Assembly (NCBI GenBank): GCA_002722055.1 | Contig: PBKD01000006.1 | Span: forward strand, 108,233-172,232 | Length of the DNA: 64,000 nt | DNA from: Rhodospirillaceae bacterium | Lineage (GTDB): Bacteria; Pseudomonadota; Alphaproteobacteria; SHVP01 | Direction: 5' to 3' | Part shown: piece by piece, positions 59,511 to 64,000 of the stretch | Position numbering within the stretch: position 1 is the stretch's first letter | How the letters are laid out: each line of letters starts with the position of its first letter | Notes under the pieces: generated by a model | Databases searched by the model: none | The model's input: only the letters and a program-made list of their open reading frames with translations | Told to the model about the DNA's origin: nothing | Program-made: the position numbers and the translations under genes

Positions 59511-59585
59511 GGGCGCGTAGCTCAGCGGGAGAGCACTACGTTGACATCGTAGGGGTCGCTGGTTCAATCCCAGCCGTGCCCACCA
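59511..59585 (+). tRNA. tRNA-Val (anticodon GAC), CCA encoded; probable island attachment site
   Basis: GGGCGCGTAGCTCAGCGGGAGAGCACTACGTTGACATCGTAGGGGTCGCTGGTTCAATCCCAGCCGTGCCCACCA; anticodon loop TTGACAT. Confidence 0.96.
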
Positions 59586-59632
59586 TAGAAACCTTAGGGT
59601 TTATTCCATAACACTTTAATGTATGTCTGTGT

Positions 59633-59652
59633 TTGTCACAATGTTGTCACAA
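59633..59652 (+). repeat. Direct repeat TTGTCACAA x2, 11-bp period, upstream of integrase
   Basis: TTGTCACAA at 59633-59641 and 59644-59652. Confidence 0.6.
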
Positions 59653-59668
59653 CAAAAGGACGAATAGC

Positions 59669-60649
59669 ATGGCGAGCATACGAAAACGTCACAATAACTA
59701 TCAGGTGCAAATCCGAAGGAAACACGCCTTACCCTTCAGTAAAACATTTGCTACCAAGAAAGAAGCAACGTCTTGGATCAAAGCAATCAAAGAACACTCC
59801 CAACACGATACTGCAATCCCTGTATTGCAACCCTCGTTGACTTTGCAGGACTTAATTGAACGCTACTTAAAAGAAGTCGTTGTGCATAAACGCAGTTGCA
59901 CCATTGAACAGTATATTTTACGGGCGTGTTTACGGTAGGCATGGGTTAGATGTTCGGTGCATTCCTTACGGTCTTCCACTTTTGCCCAGTATCGCGATGA
60001 ACGGTTGCGATCGGTTAAGCCTGCTACAATTAGTCGGGAGTTAGGATTACTCAGTCATGTGTTTACAATTGCAATGACAGAATGGAATCTTCCTCTTACT
60101 GATAATCCTTTACAGAATGTTCGCCGTCCCACAATTTGTAATACAAGGGATAGACGGTTAACTAAACAAGAAGAAACAATACTCTTTCAAAAAGTGCAAA
60201 CTTGTTCTGTAGAATACATGTATCCCATTCTTGTCCTTGCTTTAGAAACTGCTATGCGCCAAGGAGAAATTTTATCAATGCAATTGAGTCATGTGGATTG
60301 GAACACGCATGTTGTGACTCTTCCTTTAACAAAAAATGGAACCATGCGACGCGTGCCTTTATCACACAAAGCTATAACGATGTTGCGTGAGTATCATAAG
60401 GGGCATACAGATTCATTAGCGGTGTTTACCGTCACGCGTAATGCATTTAAAAAAACATGGCAACGATTAATGAAACGTTGTGGTTTTAAGGATTTACGGT
60501 TTCATGATTTACGCCATGAAGCTACCAGTCGATTGTTTGAAAAGGGCTTAAACGTGATGGAAGTTGCTAGTATTACTGGTCATAAAGATGTGCGTATGCT
60601 TTTTCGGTATACTCATCCAAGGGCAGAAACTCTAGCACAAAAACTCTAA
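59669..60649 (+). pseudogene. Phage-type tyrosine integrase interrupted by an in-frame TAG
   Basis: N-terminal part MASIRKRHNNYQVQIRRKHALPFSKTFATKKEA and C-terminal part with ETAMRQGEILSMQ, HDLRHEATSRLFEKGL, ITGHKDVRMLFRYTH lie in the same frame, separated by TAG at 59936-59938. Confidence 0.85.
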
Positions 60650-60731
60650 TAGGTATTTGATTCGACAGAAAAGGGTGAATTTTGTTATGCTTTTTTAATG
60701 CAAATTACTGATTTGAATTAATGGTGATTTT

Positions 60732-62540
60732 ATGACAGGCAGAATAATTTCTCCTTCAATAGAAGATTTTTCAAAGATTACTCCTCCATTAAATGAAGGT
60801 GAAGAAAAGGTATTCCATTTATTTAATAATAATCTAGACAAAAATTGGGAGATATATACTCAACCTTTCTTTAATGGTAAAAGACCTGATTTTATTTTGT
60901 TAAATCCTAATGTAGGGATAATTATTGTCGAAGTTAAGGACTGGGAACTTAACACGTTAAAAGATCAACAATCACATAACAAACATAATGTGCCGGTTAA
61001 TTATTTAAGAAATTTAAAAGAAAATATATTTGATATGTATTGCCCTACGTTAGCACAAAAAGGCCTTAATGCATTTGCAGCAATTGAAACAGTTTTATTT
61101 TATCCCAAAATTATTGAAGATGATTTAAAAAATATATATTCAAAAATTGCTGAAGAACCACGTGCATATATTTTTAGTAAAGACGATTTAGATTCCAATA
61201 ATTTAGATAAATTAAAGACACATCAATATAAATCAAGTAAATTAATGGCAATTGAAGATGCTGATTATTTGCGGTCATGGTTAGTTGAACCTGAACATTC
61301 AATAGAGCAAAGAACTACAATAAAATTCGACCGTCATCAAAAAGAACTTATAGAAGCCCAAAATTTAAGACGGCGTGTAAGGGGTTCTGCTGGTTCAGGA
61401 AAATCGTTGGTTTTGGTAGCGCGGGCATGTAGATTAGCATCAAAAGGAAAAAATGTTCTTATCGTTCATTTTAATAATGCGCTAAATAGTTATTTAAGAG
61501 ATCTGTCCACTGTTATTGATAGAAAAATAAAGAACAAAATAGAATTTTATCCATTATTTCAAAAGTTCAAGGACATTCTTCTAGAAAATAATTTAGGTGA
61601 TAAGTATGACGAAACTTGGGCAAAACATAAGGTTGACCAAGAATATACAGACACTACTCTAGACACTCCTCTAAATGAGATTGCCAAATTACTTATTAAT
61701 AATTCAGATTATTTGCCAAAACTTTATGATGCAATATTAATTGACGAAGGACAAAATTTTGACCCTTTATGGTGTCAAGCATTAGAAGGTTTATTAAAAC
61801 ATGATGGAGAGATGTTTTTGGCAGGAGATCATACACAGGATATTTATGAAAAGAATATCTTATGGAATAATTATGAGAAAAAGATTAATTCACAGTCAAT
61901 CATCTCTAGAGGGTGGAAAGGTTTTAGAGGTCGTTGGTTTGAGTTAAAAAAATCATACAGGTTAGCGCCTGAGATTGCTGATTTGTGTCAGGTATTTACC
62001 AAAGATTTTTTATTTGAAGATCCCATGCTTACTATCAGTCAGCAAACAGAAATTCCATACCGTTCTGATTTGAAATGGGTTCAAGTGAATAAAGAAGCTA
62101 TTATTCAATATGCTTTTGATGAATTATTTAATTTACATAAAAAATATGAATCTAAAGCTGTATCTATGACTGATATATATGCCTTATGCCAGTACAGACG
62201 AATAGGAATAGAATTAAGCAATAAACTAGAAGAGAAAAATATTAAAACATCAAATACATTTGATGATAATGGATATAAAGAAAGAAAGAAAAAGTATTAT
62301 TTTATGAAAGGTAGTGAAAGAATAAAATTAACAACTTTCCAAAGTATCCAAGGAAGAGAGATTAAGGCAGCAATTGTTATAATCGAACATGCCTCAAGCC
62401 CAATAGATTTTAGAAATATTTACACCGCCCTTACCAGACTAAAGAAAGATGAAGAAGAAGTAAGCAAATTAACAGTTGTTTGCTCAGAACAAAAATTAGA
62501 GTCATTTGGAAAAAAATGGCCTAAATTTGAAACTTATTGA
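60732..62540 (+). CDS. NERD nuclease-related domain fused to SF1 (UvrD-like) helicase
   Basis: NERD-like RPDFILLNPNVGIIIVEVKDW; Walker A VRGSAGSGKSLVLVARA; Walker B AILIDEGQNFDPLW; LTTFQSIQGREIKAAIVI; IYTALTRLKK. Confidence 0.88.
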   Translation: MTGRIISPSIEDFSKITPPLNEGEEKVFHLFNNNLDKNWEIYTQPFFNGKRPDFILLNPNVGIIIVEVKDWELNTLKDQQSHNKHNVPVNYLRNLKENIFDMYCPTLAQKGLNAFAAIETVLFYPKIIEDDLKNIYSKIAEEPRAYIFSKDDLDSNNLDKLKTHQYKSSKLMAIEDADYLRSWLVEPEHSIEQRTTIKFDRHQKELIEAQNLRRRVRGSAGSGKSLVLVARACRLASKGKNVLIVHFNNALNSYLRDLSTVIDRKIKNKIEFYPLFQKFKDILLENNLGDKYDETWAKHKVDQEYTDTTLDTPLNEIAKLLINNSDYLPKLYDAILIDEGQNFDPLWCQALEGLLKHDGEMFLAGDHTQDIYEKNILWNNYEKKINSQSIISRGWKGFRGRWFELKKSYRLAPEIADLCQVFTKDFLFEDPMLTISQQTEIPYRSDLKWVQVNKEAIIQYAFDELFNLHKKYESKAVSMTDIYALCQYRRIGIELSNKLEEKNIKTSNTFDDNGYKERKKKYYFMKGSERIKLTTFQSIQGREIKAAIVIIEHASSPIDFRNIYTALTRLKKDEEEVSKLTVVCSEQKLESFGKKWPKFETY

Positions 62541-62558
62541 TTGATAGAGGGCAGCGAG

Positions 62559-63167
62559 ATGAACGACATCATTTACCTACTGACTAATCCATCTATTCCT
62601 GATTTAGTAAAAATTGGAAAAACTGGTAATCTAGCTGAACGTATTAGATCATTATCGAGACATAGTGGAATCCCTGTCCCTTTTGAATGTTTTTATGCTT
62701 GCGAAGTAGAGAATGCAGATGATGTTGAAAAAAAACTCCATGATGCATTCGGAGATCATCGTGTTAATTCTAAGAGAGAGTTTTTTCGTATTAACCCAGA
62801 ACGTATATTAGCAATTTTAAAGTTACTAGAGTTAAAAGATGTAACTCCTAGTCAAGATTTTGTTGAAGATAAAGAGGACCAAGAAACTTTAGATAGAGAA
62901 AGAGCAAAACGATCTAGATTTAACTTTTCTATGGTAGGTTTAGAGCCGGGCAGTATCCTTACATTTTTAAAAGATGAAAATACTTCTGCTAAAGTTATAA
63001 ATAACAAGGAGATTGAATTTGAGGGTGAAGTAACCTCATTAAGTAATGCAGCTTTAAAAATTGTTAATAGAATGGGATATAATTGGTCTACATTAAGGGG
63101 CCCCCATTATTGGGTTTTTGAAGGTGAGACATTATCTGAACGACGATTAAGAATGGAGTTGGATTAG
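62559..63167 (+). CDS. GIY-YIG (T5orf172/MUG113-type) protein with RAMA/DUF4357-like C-terminal domain
   Basis: IYLLTNPSIPDLVKIGKTGNLAERIRSLSRHSGIPVPFECFYACEVENADDVEKKLHDAFGDHRVNSKREFFRI; C-terminus ...KEIEFEGEVTSLSNAALKIVNRMGYNWSTLRGPHYWVFEGETL. ATG at 62559 preferred over TTG at 62541. Confidence 0.82.
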   Translation: MNDIIYLLTNPSIPDLVKIGKTGNLAERIRSLSRHSGIPVPFECFYACEVENADDVEKKLHDAFGDHRVNSKREFFRINPERILAILKLLELKDVTPSQDFVEDKEDQETLDRERAKRSRFNFSMVGLEPGSILTFLKDENTSAKVINNKEIEFEGEVTSLSNAALKIVNRMGYNWSTLRGPHYWVFEGETLSERRLRMELD

Positions 63168-63171
63168 GCGT

Positions 63172-64000
63172 ATGAAAAAACCAGAGACATTTAATTTGTT
63201 TTTTAGTGAAGCGGAAAGTAAAGAAAAGTCAGCTTGGCTTTCAGGAAAAACAGTTAAAGACGTTGCCTTATATTTGTCGACTGCTTTATCAGCTCCAGAT
63301 GTTGCTTTAAAAATGTCTCGCTGGGCAGGATCACAATTTAACACCCTTAGTAACGACGTAACAAAAGCAATGGATGGAGATTTTGCTCTAGGATTAAGAG
63401 GAGGAGATCAATATATCTCCCCATCGCTTCATCGTTTATTTGAAGGTCACACAATACCAGAGTCACTAGAAGCAGCAAGAGCTGTTTTACCAGATGCAAG
63501 TGATGCAGAAATTGCTTGGGAGGCATTCAAAGCACTTGCGAGTGACATGTCTTCTGTATCAGGTTTGCCAATGGCTACATTTACGAAAGAAGGATATGCC
63601 GAGATTGTATCTAAATTGGAGACCTTAGGATTATCAGAATCTTATGTACGTGATTTTGTGACGTATACCGGTGTCGAGTTGCTTGCGGCAGTTGTGCCAG
63701 CTATTGGTTTTTTATTTTTATGGAAGAAAAAAGATAGGGAATCCTTTAGTCAATTGATTGGTGCTATGGGAGTCAGTGCAATTGTATCAGCTAACCCTTT
63801 ATTAGCAATTGTTACAATTGTAGCATTAGCTGCAGCGTTTAATAAAGATAAGTCAGGATTTAAAACAATTCTACCAGCGTTATCTAAAGGGTCAATACTA
63901 AGCAGTATTGTTCTTCTGTCTTCACATATTATTGCTGGGCCTGCTTGGGTAGGAATTGTAATAGGGATTATTCTTGTTATTCTTCTTCGTAAAAAAATTG
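63172..64000 (+). CDS. Multi-TM protein of unknown function, 3' truncated by window edge (not in supplied ORF track)
   Basis: ATG at 63172, open to 64000: MKKPETFNLFFSEAESKEKSAWLSGKTVKDVALYLSTALSAPDVALKMSRWAGSQFNTL... soluble N-half, hydrophobic C-half (ELLAAVVPAIGFLFLWKKK, LLAIVTIVALAAAF, WVGIVIGIILVILLRKK). Confidence 0.75.
   Translation, partial: MKKPETFNLFFSEAESKEKSAWLSGKTVKDVALYLSTALSAPDVALKMSRWAGSQFNTLSNDVTKAMDGDFALGLRGGDQYISPSLHRLFEGHTIPESLEAARAVLPDASDAEIAWEAFKALASDMSSVSGLPMATFTKEGYAEIVSKLETLGLSESYVRDFVTYTGVELLAAVVPAIGFLFLWKKKDRESFSQLIGAMGVSAIVSANPLLAIVTIVALAAAFNKDKSGFKTILPALSKGSILSSIVLLSSHIIAGPAWVGIVIGIILVILLRKKI

Follow-up and report, generated by a model that had tools for sequence, protein, structure and literature searches.

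The window analysed here, a stretch of 64,000 nucleotides, ends together with its contig (termed C6), and its last part carries a tRNA-Val gene followed by a broken recombinase and three closely packed genes, all on the plus strand. The tRNA-Val (anticodon GAC), which ARAGORN places at 59511..59585, is the presumed attachment site, and its counterparts in related genomes are 97-99% identical. The tyrosine recombinase (shufflon Rci-like; 59669..60649, 327 codons with one in-frame stop) has its ATG 84 bp beyond the tRNA, at 59669. This agrees with a preliminary description of the locus, which had reported a phage-type integrase in the same orientation about 85 bp past the tRNA. Behind it lie gene 1 (60732..62540; 602 amino acids), which combines a NERD domain with a UvrD-type SF1 helicase according to Pfam and PADLOC, gene 2 (62559..63167), which codes for a GIY-YIG domain of the T5orf172 type and a predicted C-terminal RAMA domain (Pfam, PADLOC, hhalign and fold match), and gene 3 (63172..63999), which belongs to an unnamed family. 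Gene 3 is incomplete, with 276 residues seen, because the end of the window, which falls inside it, coincides with the end of C6. The gaps between genes 1 and 2 (18 bp) and between genes 2 and 3 (4 bp) are those described before. Moreover, the Pfam matches of gene 1 (NERD/UvrD) and gene 2 (T5orf172), together with about four membrane-spanning helices in gene 3, bear out the earlier view of two nucleic-acid-processing genes and a multi-TM third. In G+C content, the recombinase frame (41%) and gene 3 (36-39%) exceed the flanking core DNA (28%; mean of the window 31%), in support of acquisition; the deviation is smaller for gene 1 (30%) and gene 2 (34%). Scans for promoters and terminators gave nothing beyond the level of shuffled sequence.

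The recombinase at the tRNA-Val is no longer intact, since a TAG at 59936..59938 (plus strand), codon 90 of 327, interrupts its frame, as is seen in the sequence, the ORF list and the translation. It still matches Phage_integrase in Pfam (1e-29), and the catalytic R, H-R, H and Y remain readable when it is aligned to the recombinase of a Pantoea plasmid. This closest plasmid relative is of the Rci type and adjoins pilV. The preliminary description expected an attR, that is a repeat of the tRNA-Val 3' end, further downstream. In the 2.16 Mb assembly the 25-mer from the tRNA 3' end is single-copy with up to 3 mismatches allowed, with the reservation that the unsequenced joint between C6 and a second contig, C4, could conceal one copy. 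No 12-mer is common to the tRNA 3' end and the end of C4. A long island bounded by attR is rejected on the basis of this pattern search and the synteny described below. What stands of the proposed tRNA-Val island is an integrase-associated tRNA hotspot of partly foreign composition, with a broken integrase and no attR seen in the assembly.

The last part of the gene 3 sequence (63656..64000, plus strand) is repeated at the very end of C4 (L004:5949-6299), where the first 109 bp are identical and the copies then diverge, with 85% identity over 351 columns. Past the identical 109 bp, many changes in the membrane domain are silent. That one assembly contains two versions of gene 3 may be due to a mixture of strains, to copies in tandem or to recombination. 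On C4, the C-terminus of gene 3 (24 further residues in that version) is followed by a 116-residue membrane protein, a methyltransferase and other genes. Contig C33 of G386, a genome of the same genus, joins the tRNA-Val side, which matches C6, to the methyltransferase side, which matches C4, the other genes between them amounting to only 3.3 kb. This filling (L108 3129-6438) consists of thermonuclease-like, amidohydrolase-like and radical-SAM-like genes, named by reading their sequences rather than by a family search. Of the same integrase, G386 also retains a remnant, its first ~130 bp; the integrase is decayed in both lineages where it was seen. A third member of the genus, G385, has yet other genes ahead of the methyltransferase. 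The synteny in G386 and G385 leads us to regard C6 and C4 as neighbours and the site as a hotspot with turnover. C4 probably follows C6 directly, the joint itself being placed by synteny, and the element would then span about 5 kb: the broken integrase, the NERD-UvrD gene, the GIY-YIG gene, the membrane protein and the small membrane protein, with core genes behind them. A shufflon was also considered and rejected, as neither an inverted copy nor a long repeat was found and the recombinase is broken. Two hints at a shufflon are left unexplained, namely the Rci-like recombinase with its plasmid relative beside pilV and the two gene 3 versions, which share their start and differ at their end.

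Gene 1 matches the Pfam families NERD (PF08378, 3.4e-7) and UvrD helicase (PF00580, 3.3e-7). The nuclease residues D53, E67 and K69, a Walker A motif (GSAGSGKS, residues 218-225) and a DEGQ motif (338-341) are present, and across an alignment of 8 homologues the three residues, the Walker A core and DEGQ are invariant save for one Walker A position. The protein corresponds to the PADLOC model C3a187, 'NERD+UvrD' (E 1.9e-84, residues 8-599 of 602 on profile positions 7-556 of 559), from which it shows no essential difference; here it precedes a GIY-YIG-RAMA gene, a neighbour seen at none of the other gene 1 loci examined. RTasNERD-Hel, a PADLOC model from reverse-transcriptase systems, has NERD and helicase in common with gene 1, but it matches far more weakly than C3a187 (2.9e-12), and a reverse transcriptase is absent among the cassette genes here. 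Nhi-like also bears a NERD domain (PMC10952713) and shares the NERD plus helicase architecture; no PADLOC Nhi match to gene 1 is listed at E up to 1. Gene 1 is rare: a strong homologue occurs in 1 of 384 other genomes of the class, a phylum sample of 399 yielded 3 homologues, and none was found in viral contigs. On plasmids as well as in genomes, the homologues are mostly single genes. One in Acinetobacter lies in a type I restriction locus, between HsdS and a helicase gene, and on an Acuticoccus plasmid a different GIY-YIG gene is found 1.5 kb before the gene 1 homologue. Two further homologues look discontinuous: the one in G066 (L102 8447-11380) appears interrupted, with the NERD start ~1 kb from the remainder, and the one on the Methylorubrum plasmid pCMU01 (L130 3950-5895) is split over two frames.

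Gene 2 starts at the ATG at 62559, with a TTG at 62541 as an alternative. Its GIY-YIG part (about 62568-62825, plus strand) matches T5orf172 in Pfam (3.3e-17), and the GIY-YIG residues Y12, K24, G26, R34 and E63 are invariant in 20 homologues. For the C-terminal ~90 residues (about 62892-63164, plus strand), the Pfam RAMA model gives no match at E up to 1, and across 20 members of the family Pfam consistently finds only T5orf172, MUG113 or GIY-YIG. The AlphaFold model of the protein (pLDDT 90), however, retrieves CcrM (6pbd, probability 1.00, E 2.8e-3) and MPND bound to DNA (7ydw, probability 0.98, E 0.29) in a Foldseek search of the PDB, while in its GIY-YIG part it is similar to Slx1 folds. 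The RAMA domain of CcrM is the closest structural relative of MPND (PMC9963953). Moreover, hhalign aligned the C-terminus with a profile of 20 RAMA domains, picked from genomes of the class by the Pfam RAMA model, at P 2.6e-7 and a probability of 89%; the controls (GIY-YIG half, gene 3, shuffled columns) reached a probability of at most 0.1%. Because of the fold match to CcrM and MPND and this profile comparison, we assign gene 2 as a predicted GIY-YIG nuclease with a RAMA C-terminus, the RAMA assignment being new here. The predicted fold has no long membrane-like helix outside the two domains, as judged from the AlphaFold model alone.

In PADLOC, gene 2 falls into PDC-S57 (3.1e-74, residues 7-206 on profile positions 4-207 of 212). 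This is a catalogue entry given without a domain reading, whereas here we read its C-terminus as RAMA and find members of the family next to restriction-modification operons of types I and III. The full-length type is found in about a dozen of 385 class genomes. In 7 of 19 other sampled loci, the gene 2 relatives adjoin restriction or defence genes or share a small island with them, and about 12 of 19 are solitary beside other genes. They stand directly behind HsdR of a type I system (L065 5077-8639) and behind a type III Res (L066 3034-8615), or adjoin HsdS/HsdM (L094), HsdS/HsdR (L097) and HsdR/HsdM-S (L100). L065 and L066 are contigs from IMG/VR, and serine-recombinase-like genes are found on them as well. 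In L087 (8270-17001), a GIY-YIG-RAMA gene and helicases of the DruE-like and DpdE-like kinds (DpdE model 3.8e-182) are divergently oriented, and in L082 a relative lies near a Mokosh-like helicase. An apparent 687-residue fusion of gene 2 in L097 was discarded as a probable mechanical extension of the ORF. The type IV enzymes of the wH-GIY-YIG kind likewise fuse GIY-YIG to a candidate reader of adenine methylation (PMC11037411). In their characterised members the reader is a winged helix, whereas gene 2 carries RAMA; GIY-YIG-RAMA fusions have been noticed as possible 6mA-dependent type IV enzymes, without characterisation (PMC11037411).

Gene 3 combines a helical, soluble N-terminal part with about four transmembrane helices from residue 161 onwards, as indicated by hydropathy and the family alignment. 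None of Pfam, NCBIfam, PHROGs and PADLOC has a counterpart of the family, and when its 22 members were all run against Pfam, only scattered weak matches resulted. With the AlphaFold model (pLDDT 73), neither a solved relative in the PDB nor a viral fold match was found. The conserved features are A66, D68, H87-R88, H93 and D125 and the membrane helices. Members occur in Acidimicrobiia, Chloroflexota, Gemmatimonadota, Alpha- and Gammaproteobacteria and Pelagibacteraceae, including 3 of 385 class genomes, and none was found in plasmids or phages. Their N-termini vary, and neighbours are not shared outside close relatives. Gene 3 and the 116-residue membrane protein behind it are accessory and need not belong to the same mechanism as genes 1 and 2.

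The preliminary description had suggested that the three genes could act together; by its own criteria, both the missing attR and the missing co-occurrence speak against this. In the set of 385 class genomes, strong matches to two of the three genes are combined in no other genome; G140 matches genes 1 and 2, but weakly (about 1e-5) and on separate contigs. At the 19 gene 2, 19 gene 3 and 27 gene 1 loci examined, the trio was never seen, and genes 1 and 2 were never adjacent. Only a Pelagibacteraceae island (L082 9851-17466) departs in part from this, holding relatives of genes 3 and 2 about 5.6 kb apart with the Mokosh-like helicase between them. The same island contains a small possible nuclease gene. 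A conserved trio is therefore rejected, as it was found neither in the 385 class genomes nor in the neighbourhoods examined. Of the suggested anti-phage cassette, what holds is that genes 1 and 2 match the PADLOC defence candidates C3a187 and PDC-S57; the trio as a system is not supported.

The locus is thus a tRNA-site hotspot, small and eroded, whose genes 1 and 2 are catalogued as defence candidates. Its content looks like anti-phage cargo of the ordinary sort, and not like a conserved new three-gene system. We think it probable that a tyrosine-recombinase element, now decayed, once opened an accessory-gene hotspot behind the tRNA-Val and that the cargo is independently mobile. Likewise, each member of the genus probably has its own filling at the site, in this case a short operon-like run of genes. 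A very improbable alternative is housekeeping or DNA repair, in which gene 1 would process DNA ends and gene 2 would act on branched DNA like Slx1, with no role in defence. NERD/UvrD proteins can act as general DNA-processing enzymes, and the Slx1-like fold of the GIY-YIG part would suit such a role, but the patchy spread (a strong gene 1 homologue in 1/384 other class genomes), the recombinase-associated site of partly foreign composition and the plasmid and restriction-locus contexts of gene 1 homologues speak against it.

We consider it unlikely that the three genes form a dedicated anti-phage system, with gene 1 as nuclease-helicase processor, gene 2 as GIY-YIG nuclease and gene 3 as membrane effector or anchor. 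Such a system might be an analogue of SNIPE (PD-Lambda-1) split into separate genes, in which the membrane protein would place the nuclease at the site of genome injection. In its favour are the tight packing of the co-oriented genes (18 bp and 4 bp apart) and the match (1e-8) between the nuclease domain of gene 2 and the PD-Lambda-1 models of SNIPE, whose homologous GIY-YIG nuclease is membrane-bound (PMC13190303). A membrane protein is also encoded next door, and L082 holds gene 3 and gene 2 relatives with the Mokosh-like helicase. SNIPE, however, has DUF4041 in its nuclease chain where gene 2 carries RAMA (DUF4041 is not among the families that Pfam consistently finds in 20 members), and the membrane part is here a separate gene of another family. 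Moreover, the trio occurs in no other genome examined, and the relatives of gene 3, in Acidimicrobiia, Chloroflexota, Gemmatimonadota and elsewhere, mostly stand alone. Slightly less doubtful is that gene 2 is a stand-alone homing-type nuclease inserted in an operon, with gene 1 as an unrelated single-gene defence candidate. T5orf172 nucleases are abundant among phage homing endonucleases (PMC10448857), and many gene 2 relatives sit alone between other genes; the roughly 12 of 19 solitary ones would also fit a nuclease of this type. Phage homologues, in contrast, match mainly the nuclease domain, with none covering 80% of gene 2, its C-terminus is RAMA instead of the zinc-finger DNA-binding modules of homing enzymes (PMC10448857), and its relatives repeatedly adjoin restriction operons.

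Within the decayed hotspot that we favour, genes 1 and 2 possibly form a two-nuclease restriction pair. The most likely action, to judge by their domains, is that gene 2 would bind DNA via RAMA, perhaps sensing adenine methylation, and would nick or cut invading DNA as the first step, whereupon gene 1 would load at the breaks with its NERD domain and SF1 helicase, unwind the DNA and degrade it. Overall, this would amount to restriction followed by processive clearance. Cooperation is suggested by the spacing of the two genes here; they were found side by side nowhere else among the loci examined. The mechanism calls for caution because many T5orf172 enzymes are homing nucleases and the reading of 6mA by RAMA is contested, 6mA having had no effect on binding in one study (PMC9963953). 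We hold it to be improbable, on a par with the SNIPE analogue, that the pair is a two-step methylation-sensing type IV unit in which GIY-YIG-RAMA would cut adenine-methylated foreign DNA, the NERD-helicase would degrade it from that point and a membrane protein would confine both to the envelope. On this reading, several helicase-bearing defence systems would share GIY-YIG-RAMA as a plug-in nuclease.

PDC-S57, a catalogued but undescribed defence candidate, now has a RAMA reader domain assigned to it. If the plug-in reading were true, a single small nuclease would connect loci of the type I, type III, Dpd/Druantia-like and NERD-helicase kinds and would offer a direct test of whether a bacterial RAMA domain reads adenine methylation. 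If the locus is more ordinary, it shows a decaying tRNA-site element turning into a hotspot for cargo.
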